Source: Terriglobia bacterium (GTDB lineage: Bacteria > Acidobacteriota > Terriglobia > Bryobacterales > Bryobacteraceae). Taken from it: DNA of 63,643 nucleotides. Shown here one piece after another: positions 30,477 through 35,795 of the stretch. The translations under genes and the position numbers were made by a program. The notes below the pieces were generated by a model. The model made no database searches. It saw only the letters and a program-made list of their open reading frames with translations, and had not been told where the DNA came from. The stretch lies in the NCBI GenBank assembly GCA_021324615.1, contig JAJPIT010000100.1, positions 1 through 63,643 of the forward strand, given 5' to 3'. Numbering within the stretch: the first letter of the stretch is position 1; each line of letters opens with the position of its first letter.

Positions 30477-30607
30477 GCGAATCGCGGCGGAAGCAGGGTC
30501 GCCCTGGCCGGTAACTCTTTCCGCAATGGGAATCCGGATTGGAACGTCACGCGGCAACGCCCCCCGATGCGCCGTGCGATTTCTTAGACTTAGCCGATCG
30601 GCAAGGC

Positions 30608-30623
30608 TGGCACGCGGATTGCT
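30608..30623 (+). promoter_or_regulatory. Sigma-54 (RpoN) promoter
   Basis: TGGCACGCGGATTGCT matches the minus-24/minus-12 consensus TGGCACG-N4-TTGCW at every specified base, with GG at 30609-30610 and GC at 30621-30622. The start of transcription should be near 30634. The palindrome at 30593-30602 lies just upstream. No RpoN activator gene is in the window. Confidence 0.75.
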
Positions 30624-30637
30624 CAAATACCGGCGGT

Positions 30638-30721
30638 ATGAAAAAGGTGAGAGCTCAAGGAACCTCGGTTGCCCTTCTCAGCAGTCTCCCCGAGCAGTAT
30701 CCCAAACCCCTGTCCCTCTAA
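30638..30721 (+). CDS. Possible 27-aa peptide encoded in the sigma-54 transcript
   Basis: ATG to TAA, starting MKKVRAQGTSVALL and ending PEQYPKPLSL. The ATG would be only about 4 nt from the predicted transcription start, so it would be essentially leaderless, as seems common in this genome. The peptide is basic at its N-terminus and has no membrane helix. Sense coding overlaps the long-range stem, so folding and translation would compete. No family recognised; chance ORF is quite possible. Confidence 0.3.
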   Translation: MKKVRAQGTSVALLSSLPEQYPKPLSL

Positions 30722-30761
30722 GAAAAATCCTCGAATCCCTACCCAACCAGGTTCCTTGAGC
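30653..30761. repeat. 13-bp perfect inverted repeat with 83-nt spacing
   Basis: Arms at 30653-30665 and 30749-30761. The right arm shares its last three bases with the terminator stem, and the left arm overlaps a competing local hairpin CTCGG (30664-30668)/CCGAG (30690-30694). Confidence 0.85.
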
Positions 30762-30777
30762 CCTCGCGGGGGCTTTT
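30758..30777 (+). terminator. Intrinsic terminator of the sigma-54 transcript
   Basis: AGCCC (30759-30763) pairs with GGGCT (30770-30774) around TCGCGG, followed by TTTT counted from 30774. The stem overlaps the right arm of the 13-bp inverted repeat by three bases, so full long-range pairing would weaken termination. Confidence 0.65.
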
Positions 30778-30870: not shown

Positions 30871-31665
30871 TCAGCCATTTTCGTGCAGAACGGCGACAAA
30901 TTCGGCGATGATGCGGTAGCGGTCCTGGTCGGGATCGAGATCCCAGCTCGGAAATTCCGGATTGAGCGATTCCAGCCGGATACGATCGTGCGACCAGCTT
31001 CCATCGCGATTCGGGCGCTTTTCGCTGCGATAGCGTTTGACGGTATAGCGGTCGTTTGCGCCTCCGCCGGCCTGCTCCACCAGCACCAGCCGCCCCTGCC
31101 GCGATCCGGCGACGCCGAAGCGAAACACGCAAAGGCTGCCATCGGGAATTTTGGGTTCCATCGAGCGGCCGGCGATCCGGGCGACGAACATCTCCGGGGC
31201 CAGCTTCAGGCCGGCGGGGGCTTCCTCCCAACCCTCCGCGGTCACTTCCCTGTTTTCCAGAAACTTGCCCGCGGCGACCGCCAGAGAGTAGCGCGGCAGA
31301 TGGGTTTCATACGGGCGGACGCTGGCATGGACGTGCTCGCGGTAAAGCCGCGCCAGGGCCCGTTCGAAGTCGCCGACGGCGGTTTCGCGCGGCTCGGAGA
31401 TGCGCAGCACGTTGGAAAGCGTTTGCTCGAAGTACTCGATCAGGCGCCGCGCTCCGGCGGCGGCCTTCTGCTCCAGATCCGCCGCCAGAGCGCCGAAGAC
31501 CTCGGCTTCCTCTCCCGCGATCTGGTCCCAGTCGCGGCGCAGGCGGATCCACAGGCGGTCCTGTTCCGGATCCTCCAGGATCACGCCGGCGGCCACCACG
31601 CCGGTTGAGGGCAAATCGGCTTCCAGGATCCAGTACCGCGCGGCTGTGGTGGCAAGGAGGGTCAA
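30871..31665 (-). CDS. S24/LexA-fold protease-like protein without a DNA-binding domain
   Basis: A 264-aa protein whose C-terminal third is an S24 peptidase fold (LexA/UmuD family). Nucleophile Ser168 is in RIAGRSMEPKIPDGS and the general-base Lys is probably K210 in DRYTVKRY. The N-terminal ~150 residues are not a helix-turn-helix; they look like a separate alpha/beta domain (RYWILEADLPSTGVVAAGVIL) with a helical part containing FGALAADLEQKAAAGARRLIE. I do not recognise that domain. No LexA-type Ala-Gly cleavage site is obvious. TTG start overlaps the TGA of the upstream VWFA gene (TTGA), implying translational coupling. It may be a self-processing regulator or a signal-peptidase-like enzyme; function unknown. 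Confidence 0.75.
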   Translation of the reverse strand: MTLLATTAARYWILEADLPSTGVVAAGVILEDPEQDRLWIRLRRDWDQIAGEEAEVFGALAADLEQKAAAGARRLIEYFEQTLSNVLRISEPRETAVGDFERALARLYREHVHASVRPYETHLPRYSLAVAAGKFLENREVTAEGWEEAPAGLKLAPEMFVARIAGRSMEPKIPDGSLCVFRFGVAGSRQGRLVLVEQAGGGANDRYTVKRYRSEKRPNRDGSWSHDRIRLESLNPEFPSWDLDPDQDRYRIIAEFVAVLHENG

Positions 31666-32723
31666 TTTACGCCGAAGGGATAGTAGCCGCGGCGCGCGCG
31701 AACCTTCACCGCGGGCAGGTTCACTTTTACCACGATGTTCCGGAACTGCTTGGCCGAATCCTCCGGCGGCACGTCCGGAATGTAGCGCAGGATGTACTGC
31801 GTGGTCACTTCGCCGACCACCGCGGCCACGGCTCCGAAGATCGCCGAAGAGACCGCCGCGGCATATCCTCCGGTGCCGGGTTGGATGGCGTAGTTGCCTT
31901 CATCGCGCGGCTGCGACAGATAGCCGCTGATATCCTTATAGGGATTGGCCAGCGGGTACTCGACGCGCCCGCCGGTTTCCTGGGCCAGCCGCTCCAGGGC
32001 GTCGGAGCCCTCGTTGGTGAAGCCGGAGTACAGGGTCGACAGGCCGTAGATGGTGACCAGATTGCGCTGGGCGATCTCAATGACCTGGTCCAGCGTCTTG
32101 CTGGAGTGATTGTCGTTGCCGTCGCCGATGACGATGATCACGCGGCGCGGCTCGACCGGCTCGCCCTGAATCAGCTTGCGGTCCGTGCAGGCTTCATAGA
32201 TGGCGTCGTACAGCGCCGATCCGCCGCCCGGCTTCAGCTTGCGCAGCCGCTCCAGAATCGGCTGCGGATCGCTGGTGGTATCCACCAGCAGGTGCGCTTC
32301 GTCGGAGAATCCGATCAGGTAACCGCCGAATTTCTTCTTCTCAATGGCGCTTTCCTGATCGGGCAGCATTTGCAGCACCAGCTCCTCGGCCGCCTGCTCC
32401 CAGTTCTTCCAGTTGGTGCGGCTGCCGTTGCTCAGGTCCAGCAAAAAGCCGACCACCACGGGCTGGTTGCGCTCCCGGGTGAAATACTCGATCGCCTGCT
32501 CGCGTCCTTCGTCGAAGATGTGAAAATCCTTCTGTTCCAGGTTGGAGACGAAGCGGCCCTTTTCGTCGGTGACGGTGACCGGCACCACCACTTCGTTGAC
32601 CGATACCTTGATGGCGCCCTGTCCGGCCGAGGCCGGCGTCTGCTGCGCATTCGGCGGCTGCTGGGCGTAGCCCGCCGCGAAAATCAACAGACAGCAGGCC
32701 AGCGAAATGACCCGTAACGGCAT
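31662..32723 (-). CDS. Secreted VWFA-domain protein with degenerate MIDAS
   Basis: Second TIGR03436-type protein, 353 aa. A Sec signal peptide (MPLRVISLACCLLIFAAGYAQ) and Gln/Pro-rich linker precede the N-terminal beta-domain (VNEVVVPVTVTDEKGRFV) and a VWA domain. The MIDAS reads DLSNGS (96-101), so the third position of DxSxS is Gly100, which may weaken metal binding. VIGDGNDNHSSKTL and the C-terminal YILRYIPDVPPEDSAKQF are family features. It has its own TATAAT box and an AAGGGAAG ribosome-binding site. The stop overlaps the start of the S24-like gene, so the two proteins may act together. Confidence 0.85.
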   Translation of the reverse strand: MPLRVISLACCLLIFAAGYAQQPPNAQQTPASAGQGAIKVSVNEVVVPVTVTDEKGRFVSNLEQKDFHIFDEGREQAIEYFTRERNQPVVVGFLLDLSNGSRTNWKNWEQAAEELVLQMLPDQESAIEKKKFGGYLIGFSDEAHLLVDTTSDPQPILERLRKLKPGGGSALYDAIYEACTDRKLIQGEPVEPRRVIIVIGDGNDNHSSKTLDQVIEIAQRNLVTIYGLSTLYSGFTNEGSDALERLAQETGGRVEYPLANPYKDISGYLSQPRDEGNYAIQPGTGGYAAAVSSAIFGAVAAVVGEVTTQYILRYIPDVPPEDSAKQFRNIVVKVNLPAVKVRARRGYYPFGVN

Positions 32724-32740
32724 ACAGCTTCCCTTGTCGA

Positions 32741-32746
32741 ATTATA
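32741..32746 (-). promoter_or_regulatory. Minus-10 box of the second VWFA gene
   Basis: A perfect TATAAT on the minus strand, 17 nt before the ATG at 32723, leaves room for the AAGGGAAG ribosome-binding site. No clear minus-35. This promoter is of the leadered kind. Confidence 0.45.
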
Positions 32747-32791
32747 CAGGACTCGCGGCCGGGCGGCGCCGGAGCCCGCGCCGCGCCCCCG

Positions 32792-33724
32792 TCAGCGGAA
32801 CGCCGCGACGCTGCGCTGCCGGGCCCATCCCACTCCCTCGTGCCGCGCCTCGAACGCTTCCGGGAACAGCATCTCGGCCAGCATCCGCAGCGACTCGACC
32901 ACCCGCGGCCCCGGCCGGTTGAAATACTGATTGCCGTCCGCCACAAAAACGCGGCCTTCCCGGACCGCGCGCAGCCCGTCCCAGCCGGGCCGGCCGCTGA
33001 GCCAGTGCATCTCGCGCCGCGCGCGCTCCAGATCGTAGCCGCAGGGCATGGAGATGATCGCGTCCGGATCGGCGGCGATCAGATCTTCCCAGTTCATCCA
33101 CGGGGAGTGCGCGCCCGGCTCGCCAAACAGATTTTCCGCGCCGAGCAGCGCGATCAGCTCGGGAACCCAGTTGCCGGCGGCCATCAGCGGCTCCGGCCAT
33201 TCGACCGCCGCGACCCGGGGATGGCGGCCGGTGGATTTCGCACGCGCCGCGATGGCCGACATCCGCTCCTTCATCGAATCGACCAGAGCGTTTCCGCGCT
33301 CCTCGACCCCGCAGGCGCGGGCCAGGCGCAGGATGTCCTGGAAGATGCCGGAAAGGGCGTGGGGTTCGAGCGCGATCACCACCGGGCGGGTGGAAAATTT
33401 TTGCGAAAGCGCGCTCTCGACGTCCTTCAGGCTCACCGCGCAGACTTCGCACTGCGTCTGCGTGACGATGTGGGTGGGCCGGAGGCGCTCCAGCTCATCC
33501 TCGAAAACGTCGTAGACGCTGAAGGCGCTTTTTAGCGTCTCCCGGACGCGGCGGTCGATCTCGCGGCTGTCGCCGGAGACGTCGAATTTCGGTTTGGTGC
33601 AGACCGGCAGCGCGGCGGCCGAGGCCGGGTAGTCGCATTCATGCGAGCGGCCCACCTGAAACTCGCCCAGCCCCAGCGCGTGCACCATCTCGGTCGCGCT
33701 GGCGATCAGGCTGACGATCCTCAT
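32792..33724 (-). CDS. BtuF/FecB-like cobalamin or siderophore-binding protein without signal peptide
   Basis: A 310-aa protein of the TroA/BtuF superfamily (periplasmic binding protein for vitamin B12 or iron chelates). It opens MRIVSLIASATEMVHALGLGE, as many cobalamin-binding proteins do after processing, and keeps the two-lobe pattern (RPTHIVTQTQCEVCAVSL; AADPDAIISMPCGYDLERA). There is no N-terminal signal peptide, so it is either cytoplasmic or exported by an unrecognised route. No permease or ATPase gene is adjacent, so it is not in a standard ABC cassette. Family fairly certain, ligand not. Confidence 0.8.
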   Translation of the reverse strand: MRIVSLIASATEMVHALGLGEFQVGRSHECDYPASAAALPVCTKPKFDVSGDSREIDRRVRETLKSAFSVYDVFEDELERLRPTHIVTQTQCEVCAVSLKDVESALSQKFSTRPVVIALEPHALSGIFQDILRLARACGVEERGNALVDSMKERMSAIAARAKSTGRHPRVAAVEWPEPLMAAGNWVPELIALLGAENLFGEPGAHSPWMNWEDLIAADPDAIISMPCGYDLERARREMHWLSGRPGWDGLRAVREGRVFVADGNQYFNRPGPRVVESLRMLAEMLFPEAFEARHEGVGWARQRSVAAFR

Positions 33725-33730
33725 GCTTCG

Positions 33731-33736
33731 ATGTTA
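33731..33736 (-). promoter_or_regulatory. Leaderless minus-10 box of the BtuF-like gene
   Basis: CGCTAACAT with TAACAT ending 6 nt before the ATG (spacer CGAAGC). Same string as upstream of pyrE. Confidence 0.5.
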
Positions 33737-33784
33737 GCGGAGCCGCGGGAGCTCCGGCGGGAGCCGTTCCACCTTTCTGGAACG

Positions 33785-33922
33785 TTATCGGGAGGCAGCG
33801 CCGAGCAGTTCTTCCAGCGACCGGGTCTGCCGGGACGGCGGCTGGCCCGGATGGGCGATTCGCAGCAGGCTCAGCAGGAATTGCAGGTTCTGGGGGGCGG
33901 CGAGTTCCGCGCGGGTTTCCAT
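33785..33922 (-). CDS. Possible 45-aa small protein
   Basis: ATG to TAA, 45 codons, starting METRAELAAPQNLQFLLSLL and ending SLEELLGAASR; amphipathic helical character, no membrane segment. AGGAGG stands just before the ATG but only 1 nt away, which is too close for normal initiation. It lies between the TolC-like operon and the BtuF-like gene. No family recognised. Confidence 0.35.
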   Translation of the reverse strand: METRAELAAPQNLQFLLSLLRIAHPGQPPSRQTRSLEELLGAASR

Positions 33923-33977
33923 GCCTCCTCTATCGGCTCCGCCGGCGGTTTCCTGTAGGGCCGCCCAGCCCGCCTCT

Positions 33978-35795
33978 TCAGGGCCGGGCCAGCACCTGAT
34001 CCAGGTTCAGGTGATTGGCCTCAAACGTCGTGCCCATGGCCTGATCGAGCGTCACCCGGGCCTTGGCGTAGGCGTCCTGCGCCTGCACCAGAGCGAGCCT
34101 CGCCGTAAACACGTCGCGCTGCCGGAGCACCACGTTATAAGCATTGGATACGCCGGCCGCCAGCCGCTTCTGCTCGGCGTCGAGCTGGGCCTCGGCCAGC
34201 CGCAGCGCCTCGCGGGCTGCGATCACCTGCTGGCGCGCCTGCCGCGACGCCGTCAGCCAGTTCTGCACATCGAGTTCGATCTGGTTCCGGGTGTGCAGCA
34301 GAGTATCCTCGGACTGGCGGAGCTCGAGCTGGGAGCGGATATTATCCGCCTGCGCCTGGCGGTTGCGGAAGGGGAACGAAATATTGATCCCGAAGGCGTA
34401 CAGCGGATATTTGAACTGGACCGCCTCCACCCAGGCCGTGCCGAACACGTTGCTCAGCGCGTCGGTGGTCATCATGGCGAAAAGATTCATGCTCGGCAGC
34501 AGGGAGTTGCGCACAAACGGCTGCACGTCGCGCTGGCTTTTGATGTTGCCTTCGGCGATGGACACCTCCGGGCGGTTTTTCCGCGCGATCTCGACCGCTT
34601 CCTCCAGCTTCGGCAGGGGGCGCTCGTCGAGCTCGGGGAAGGCGTCCACGGTCTGGATTGAGGCCGAGGCCAGCGGCTCGTCCAGATTCTTGCTGAGCAG
34701 GGTTTTGAGCTGGAGCTCGGCGTTCTGCTCGTTGGTGCGGGCCACAATCAGGTCGCGCCGGCTGCTGGCCGCCTGCGATTCAGCGGTGGCGATGTCCAGC
34801 CGCGACATGACACCCGCCTCGAACTCCTTGCGGTTGTTCTCCACCAGTTGTTCGGCCGCCTTGACCTCCTCCTCCGCCGCCAGCACCGCTTCCTTGGCCG
34901 CGATCAGGTCCCAGTAGGCGTTCTGCGCGGCGGCGATCGCGGCGACCGCGGTGGCGCGGAAGGACTCCCGTTCGATGTTCAGCTCGTTTTCGGCGACGTG
35001 AATCAACGCCAGGTTCACCGCCCTGCCGAAGCCGTTCAGCAACTGCTGCGCGACGCTGACGTTAAAGCCCGGCGTGTAATACGGATTGTAGAGCAGGTGG
35101 AGCTGCGTCGACTTCTGCCGGTTCACGCCATAGGAGGCGCTGATGCTCAGCCCGGTGGAAAACGCCTGCGTGTAGCCGAAGGAAAACGCCCGCGTGGAGG
35201 TGGTCACCGCGGGAATGCCGGAAACCACGACGCTGTTCAGCGGGCTGGCGGTGTGGTCGACGCTGAAGTTGACGGTGACGGTGGGATCGAACAGGCCCGC
35301 CGGCCGCACCACCACGGCGCTGGCGTTGCCGGTGATGCCGCCGGCGCTGAACGAGGTTCCGCCCACGTTGCCGCCGCCGCCGAGAATGCTGCCGCCGACC
35401 GCGCCGGCGAACACAATGCCGGGCACCACCGCCTGATCGACGCCGCGCGGCGAACTTCCGGATCTGGCGCGCAGCAGATCCACCCGCGCCATCGACGGAT
35501 AAAGCCGCGCAGCGGCCACATTCAAATTATTGGCCAGCACCAGATCGACCACTTGCTCGATGGACAGCTCCAGTTTCCCGTCGCGCACCTGGAGCGGCTC
35601 GGCGTTGCTCAGCCGCGCCTCGGGGATGGAGCGCCTCAGGTATGGTTTCCAGATCCAGGGCCAGGCCCGAGCGGCGCGGCTGTAATCAGGCCGCGCGAGA
35701 TTGGTTTCCGGCGCTTGCGCGCGAGCCGCCGCGCAAAGCAGGCTGAGCAGGAGCAGACAGCGCCATCCGCTCCCGGGATGCCGACCAACCCTCAT
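33978..35795 (-). CDS. TolC-family outer-membrane efflux protein (downstream copy)
   Basis: A 605-aa TolC/OEP-type protein forming a trimeric outer-membrane/periplasmic channel for efflux or type I secretion. Signal peptide around residues 1-27 (WRCLLLLSLLCAAARA). Two OEP repeats of long coiled-coil helices (VLAAEEEVKAAEQLVENNRKEFEAG; ALRLAEAQLDAEQKRLAAG) with the typical VSNAYNVVLRQRDVF and the family ending ARVTLDQAMGTTFE. A Gly/Ala-rich beta-strand insert (SPLNSVVVSGIPAVTTST) is shared with the upstream paralogue. Start overlaps the upstream stop as ATGA. No membrane-fusion or pump genes follow. Confidence 0.86.
   Translation of the reverse strand: MRVGRHPGSGWRCLLLLSLLCAAARAQAPETNLARPDYSRAARAWPWIWKPYLRRSIPEARLSNAEPLQVRDGKLELSIEQVVDLVLANNLNVAAARLYPSMARVDLLRARSGSSPRGVDQAVVPGIVFAGAVGGSILGGGGNVGGTSFSAGGITGNASAVVVRPAGLFDPTVTVNFSVDHTASPLNSVVVSGIPAVTTSTRAFSFGYTQAFSTGLSISASYGVNRQKSTQLHLLYNPYYTPGFNVSVAQQLLNGFGRAVNLALIHVAENELNIERESFRATAVAAIAAAQNAYWDLIAAKEAVLAAEEEVKAAEQLVENNRKEFEAGVMSRLDIATAESQAASSRRDLIVARTNEQNAELQLKTLLSKNLDEPLASASIQTVDAFPELDERPLPKLEEAVEIARKNRPEVSIAEGNIKSQRDVQPFVRNSLLPSMNLFAMMTTDALSNVFGTAWVEAVQFKYPLYAFGINISFPFRNRQAQADNIRSQLELRQSEDTLLHTRNQIELDVQNWLTASRQARQQVIAAREALRLAEAQLDAEQKRLAAGVSNAYNVVLRQRDVFTARLALVQAQDAYAKARVTLDQAMGTTFEANHLNLDQVLARP

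Follow-up and report, generated by a model that had tools for sequence, protein, structure and literature searches.

A sigma-54-controlled RNA family of soil Acidobacteria with a stem-closed, periodic C-rich loop, a possible decoy for Rho

CsrA and Hfq are titrated by RNAs; Rho is inhibited by proteins. CsrA decoys of the CsrB/RsmZ type carry repeated GGA in their loops. In Pseudomonas, CrcZ (with CrcY) is described as RpoN-dependent, and its six (A-R-N)n repeats sequester hexameric Hfq (PMC4063720). Psu inhibits Rho, and Rof is reported to block the Rho primary site (PMC11018607, PMC11018626). The small RNAs SraL and ChiX change the output of Rho by pairing with mRNAs, hiding or exposing rut sites, which are given as single-stranded, C-rich, low in G and about 60-80 nt long (PMC6582626). 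Rho sites have YC dimers 9-13 nt apart (PMC9160355). Six Rho protomers are described as binding 60 nt, 10 nt each, with (AACCC)6 as the consensus of PBS ligands (PMC11018607), and PBS-bound RNA is said to favour closure of the Rho ring (PMC11018626). Candidate structured RNAs of Acidobacteria include Solibacter-1, Acido-1, and Acido-Lenti-1 (PMC2864571). Among the matches listed in our searches of the open literature there was no RNA decoy for bacterial Rho, which is weak evidence of absence.

Here we describe a locus that almost certainly holds a sigma-54-controlled RNA gene. It lies in a window of 63,643 nt (the whole stretch of DNA analysed, contig JAJPIT010000100.1 of a Terriglobia bacterium), and comparison with related genomes shows that its promoter, a covarying stem, and a C-rich, G-poor loop form one compact, conserved unit. 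CrcZ appears to be the nearest known RNA in logic. Like CrcZ and CrcY, the new RNA would depend on RpoN and would sequester a global RNA-binding protein that forms hexamers. CrcZ and CrcY have A-rich repeats and act on Hfq, whereas the new RNA has C-clusters in one stem-closed loop, a proposed link to Rho, and no Rfam match. Judged by composition (23% A, 43% C), its loops do not have the A-rich repeats of a CrcZ-type Hfq decoy, and GG is depleted in them (17 against 41.8 expected), unlike the loops of CsrB/RsmZ-type decoys. The loop resembles rut sites such as lambda tR1, which are C-rich, G-poor single strands 60-80 nt long, in its spaced YC dimers and its match to six subunits, but as described those sites lie within longer transcripts and have free RNA after them, whereas a stem closes the new loop and a sigma-54 promoter of its own precedes it. 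Unlike Rof and Psu, which are proteins, the Rho inhibitor proposed here is an RNA; SraL and ChiX base-pair with mRNAs and do not mimic a rut site. Acido-1 and Acido-Lenti-1 are given Rfam accessions in PMC2864571, whereas the new RNA has no Rfam match; Solibacter-1 is listed there for Solibacter usitatus without an accession, and it enters our comparison from that listing and not from its sequence. Rfam 15 returned nothing at the gathering cut-off for the whole window or for the loci of 13 relatives, and nothing for the locus itself at E ≤10, in keeping with the first-pass annotation, for which no RNA of this architecture was known to have been described.

The RNA is encoded on the forward strand in an intergenic gap of 407 bp between the pyrE ATG (30463) and the end of an S24-like gene (30871). 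Its sigma-54 promoter, TGGCAC-N5-TTGCT (TGGCACGCGGATTGCT, 30608-30623), is the sole exact match to TGGCACN5TTGCW within the window, where 0.03 are expected. We infer from the promoter position a start near 30634, about 12 nt past the -12 element, and a 5' leader at 30634-30652. A perfect 13-bp stem follows, in which GCTCAAGGAACCT (30653-30665) pairs with AGGTTCCTTGAGC (30749-30761). The gap, the consensus match, and the long-range stem had all been claimed in the first-pass annotation, and all three are borne out, by the ends of the two flanking genes, by the pattern scan of the window, and by covariation of the stem in relatives. Among relatives the paired region resolves into helix 1 (30653-30663 with 30751-30761) and helix 2 (GGTTG at 30667-30671 with CAACC at 30744-30748).

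With a query of 211 bases, BLAST returned the element from 7 of 101 genomes, one of which was the window's own, and these seven sequences, promoter included, were used to build covariance model R1. R1 matches 15 of the 23 genomes of the genus and 101 of 200 sampled genomes of the family, nearly all of them with one place. Model R2 was built without the promoter from 21 rows picked by eye, and so rests on well-aligned rows; MAFFT alone put helix 2 one column off in part of the rows. Searches with R2 matched 57 of 399 genomes in the class, all 57 from the window's own family, and 1 of 396 in the phylum, which was the window's own, both under stricter filters that lose weak matches. The alignment of relatives used below holds 100 of 112 loci, the 12 lowest-scoring having been left out. 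The first-pass annotation had treated promoter, structure, and terminator as a compact unit, to be given up if related genomes held no homologous arrangement. Promoter and covarying stem are found so arranged in the 101 family genomes, and the unit stands. Eight genus genomes (G001, G002, G003, G006, G008, G011, G012, and G014) have no match at E ≤0.001; at E ≤5 three of them give chance-level matches only, and most have smaller genomes. The RNA appears to be dispensable, since these 8 of 23 genomes are without it although RpoN was matched in all 23 (above the cut-off in 22, among them the window's genome) and Rho is widespread.

A few genomes have two or three copies of the RNA: G049 (L138, L142, L237), G103 (L154), G151 (L116, L135), and G043 (L194, L107). 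Two copies in G103 are about 330 nt apart on the same contig. In L080, a stem-pattern match from an acidobacterial MAG (RBC012), the promoter distance is kept and the loop is rich in C, but GGTTG is missing behind the stem; it is perhaps a more distant variant of the RNA.

The exact promoter pattern is unremarkable alone at the scale of the genome (five matches, against four for a reversed-pattern control), and its credibility appears to come from conservation. In the 100 aligned relatives the GG bases at -24 are kept in 99 and 100 and the GC bases at -12 in 100 and 100, with a variable spacer, a count drawn with R1, which itself contains the promoter. In the same relatives TTGC and helix 1 are 30.0 ± 2.3 nt apart. 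Twelve places were found only by the promoter-free R2, and 11 of the 12 have a sigma-54 site at the right distance (9 or more of the 12 consensus positions matched, 23-32 nt ahead of where the model starts); these 11 are not independent, as three are from one genus and others are related. The single place without a promoter is a second place in genome G049.

Upstream of the promoter we found a palindromic, enhancer-like motif, TNCC-N6-GGAAC. It was learned from 98 upstream regions and scored in-sample, with at least one site in 92 of the 98, at least two in 67, and most sites 50-130 nt before the promoter. The real regions give a motif fit of 366, from 15 starts, and the four shuffled sets give 91-113, from 6 starts. 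The window has two such sites in tandem on the forward strand, CTTTCCGCAATGGGAA at 30517-30532 (13.8 bits) and AATCCGGATTGGAACG at 30531-30546 (15.3 bits), and we predict that an enhancer-binding protein probably acts there. No GAFTGA or GESGxGKE motif of a regulator gene occurs within 9 kb of the RNA (100 loci, flanks as far as fetched). A shared regulon was considered and rejected: the other four exact sigma-54 matches in the genome have no strong upstream motif (best 3.9-8.7 bits, against 15.3).

Covariation of the stem was measured on 98 RNAs aligned to R2, where 94.2% of cells are paired and both-side changes occur in 15 of the 16 pairs. There are 198 double-change cells, against 48.9 in shuffles and 11-45 in slid controls, and none of 500 shuffles is as high on any covariation measure. 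That alignment is fitted to the structure, and helix 1 was therefore recounted on a plain, structure-free MAFFT alignment of 42 rows, which gives 93.3% paired cells and 43 double-change cells against 9.8. Helix 1 has the loosest of the 16 pairs at its top, with 31 of 96 cells unpaired. A single-sequence fold gives no extra stability over shuffles (z -0.66, with 46 of 200 shuffles equally good); the support for the stem is comparative. At 30760-30777, overlapping the base of helix 1, is a weak intrinsic-terminator-like hairpin followed by TTTT (GCCCTCGCGGGGGCTTTT). The intrinsic terminator of the first-pass annotation holds in part: the minimal hairpin is present, and roughly one relative in five has a terminator-like hairpin no more than 90 nt from the stem (21 of 100, against 3.2 expected from shuffles), but in the window it is weak and was not called by the terminator scan.

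A family-wide pseudoknot between leader and loop was rejected, as the RNAs' own pairs are no better than swapped ones (49 RNAs, permutation p 0.87). In some sub-clades (L120, L110, and L121; L146, L149, and L233) the leader is complementary to a loop segment, with ACAGGGC opposite GCCCTGT and GTGACT opposite AGTCAC, and may form a pseudoknot peculiar to these clades.

In the window the inner loop (30672-30743) measures 72 nt, with 43% C and 11% G, which agrees with the C-rich interior poor in G noted in the first-pass annotation. In the 100 relatives the loop is 72.4 ± 3.4 nt long (range 65-83) with 43% C, 10% G, and 23% A, a composition that suggests an unstructured strand. The C residues gather in six peaks at about positions 3, 16, 30, 45, 57, and 67 of 72. 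In 49 non-redundant loops (less than 60% alike) the Fourier power of C is highest at a period of 13.5 nt (z 11.1); with the conserved loop ends trimmed, z is 11.8, or 8.4 against dinucleotide shuffles, and since the loops share ancestry these shuffle scores do not count as independent events. The window's own loop peaks at 13.5 nt as well (2.97). A control set of 304 C-rich, G-poor stretches from the same loci, after 88 of 392 were dropped for overlap with the RNA, has z -1.4 at this period.

Covariance models include the C positions and hence favour periodic loops. A loop-blind set was taken with a stem-only pattern over 84,980 species genomes, which gave 76 strand-wise stem matches, 11 of them with the promoter in place. 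All 11 loops have 39-47% C and 6-18% G, and their z at 13.5 nt is 4.3 (3.5 for the 8 non-redundant loops), four of the 11 being also among the R1 training rows. This set has an additional 10-nt period (z 5.8, or 3.2 non-redundant). The loops found only by R2 (9 non-redundant) have z 4.4 at 13.5 nt and z 5.3 at a period of 13 nt. Among pentamers, AACCC shows the strongest enrichment in the loops (36 against 13.9), a result obtained before the Rho consensus was known to the analysis. With trimmed ends it is second of 375 pentamers behind TTCCC, with an excess z of 3.3 against dinucleotide shuffles.

We propose that the RNA occupies the primary sites of Rho under sigma-54 control and acts as a decoy that lowers Rho-dependent termination, and we give this reading a probability of about 0.42. 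The sigma-54 RNA polymerase would transcribe the RNA, probably with an enhancer-binding protein on the tandem upstream palindromes. The 16-bp stem, in two helices, would keep the 72-nt loop open as a single strand, and each of the six C-clusters, spaced every 13-14 nt, would be bound by one Rho subunit of the hexamer at its primary RNA site. We favour a decoy because the stem comes directly after the last cluster: double strand at that point would leave no free RNA for the channel of the Rho ring, and the RNA would occupy Rho without bringing it to the polymerase. Rho-dependent termination would then fall when sigma-54 fires. Rho is the leading candidate because the loop matches it in symmetry, length, and composition. 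At 65-83 nt, 43% C, and 10% G the loops are rut-like, and we count their C period of 13-14 nt as agreeing with the 9-13 nt spacing of pyrimidine-C dimers. Since PBS ligands also promote ring closure, the effect on Rho could be activation; transcription, Rho binding, and inhibition instead of activation are what we infer from these features. To name both Rho as the partner and decoy as the mode is accordingly a tentative step, at somewhat less than even odds. A natural trans-acting rut-site mimic in its full form, with six clusters for each Rho hexamer, a stem that blocks threading, and a sigma-54 signal that turns down or tunes Rho genome-wide, is put forward a shade more hesitantly.

The window's genome encodes one full-length Rho (G000:C125) with intact GFGFLR, DVYVS, and GERYF, which we take to be primary-site motifs, and all three are kept in 6 of 6 translated Rho proteins. 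F62 is named as a Rho primary-site residue (PMC11018626). Rho is above the family cut-off in 37 of 41 relatives; of the other four, three have incomplete genomes and G023 has a fragment at a contig end. G005, an 82% complete genome, has the RNA and no Rho above the cut-off. Our main reservations are the spacing in the loop, 13.5 nt against 10 nt per protomer in the Rho complex described in PMC11018607, and the fact that Rho also occurs where the RNA is absent.

The gene neighbourhood bears on a reading in which the element acts in cis. Of 100 loci, 60 have a tolC-like gene upstream of the RNA on its own strand, 116-422 nt away in 47 of them and 1-5 kb away in 13. Divergent pyrE and truA genes stand upstream in 54 and 56 loci, and the downstream genes are btuF-like in 19, VWA-like in 16, and S24-like in 14, counts for which contig ends cut many flanks. 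With the tolC-like gene so often close by, the element might be a Rho-dependent terminator of that gene, which we consider improbable, because such a terminator has no need of a sigma-54 promoter with sites ahead of it, or of a covarying stem to close the loop. In the window (31662-35795) and in L162, the tolC-, btuF-, VWA-, and S24-like genes form a block whose orientation is opposite to that in the other loci, and the window RNA is therefore placed between pyrE and the S24-like gene. The tolC-like gene is there on the opposite side and strand and the RNA unit is intact, which argues against a terminator in cis and marks the RNA as an independent unit inherited at one site. Least probable of all is that the locus encodes a tiny peptide of 27 aa (30638-30721). 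The frame's 27 codons are kept in the window and nearest relatives, and of 83 RNAs with an early ATG or GTG, 49 share one frame relative to helix 1. This shared frame is the single finding that speaks for coding, and the constant distance between leader and stem accounts for it. Across the 83 RNAs the frame is 1-46 codons long, and it stops after 11 in L007. Among four close relatives the substitutions are even over codon positions (e.g. 4, 4, 5) and nonsynonymous codons outnumber synonymous ones in 6 of 6 comparisons, and on this substitution pattern the frame was rejected as a selected protein.

Two other readings share with the Rho proposal a loop that acts in trans. The first-pass annotation had seen the loop as suited to pairing with the G-rich Shine-Dalgarno regions of mRNAs, as in a trans-acting antisense RNA. 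A C-rich, G-poor loop would serve such pairing, and TCCTC is enriched (39 against 16) and often forms the first loop bases after helix 2 (54 of 100 loops). CCUCC is not enriched, however, being found in 17 of the 49 non-redundant loops against 21 expected (CTCCT 20 against 13), and the sequence between clusters diverges while the length and the 13.5-nt spacing stay, neither of which pairing requires. We hold antisense action to be unlikely; the first-pass annotation was right about the unit and most likely wrong about its mode of action. Periodic clusters in a loop of constrained length suggest a multivalent protein partner, and the sequence does not name Rho uniquely. The RNA might serve as decoy or scaffold to a different protein with affinity for C-rich single strands, such as ribosomal protein S1, which has six OB domains, a cold-shock protein, or an unknown protein. 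This is doubtful too, if slightly less so than antisense pairing, as the number of clusters, the preference for C over G, the length, and the spacing jointly fit published Rho sites.

If the RNA does act on Rho as a decoy, titration of Rho by a dedicated RNA would supply a layer of control that has been missing. It would explain a genome-wide relief of premature termination under a sigma-54 signal, and structural studies would gain a natural ligand that Rho binds with high affinity. Even if the partner is not Rho, this is a well-supported new RNA family, with promoter, enhancer, and structure defined, from a little-studied phylum, where it is found in one family of soil Acidobacteria.
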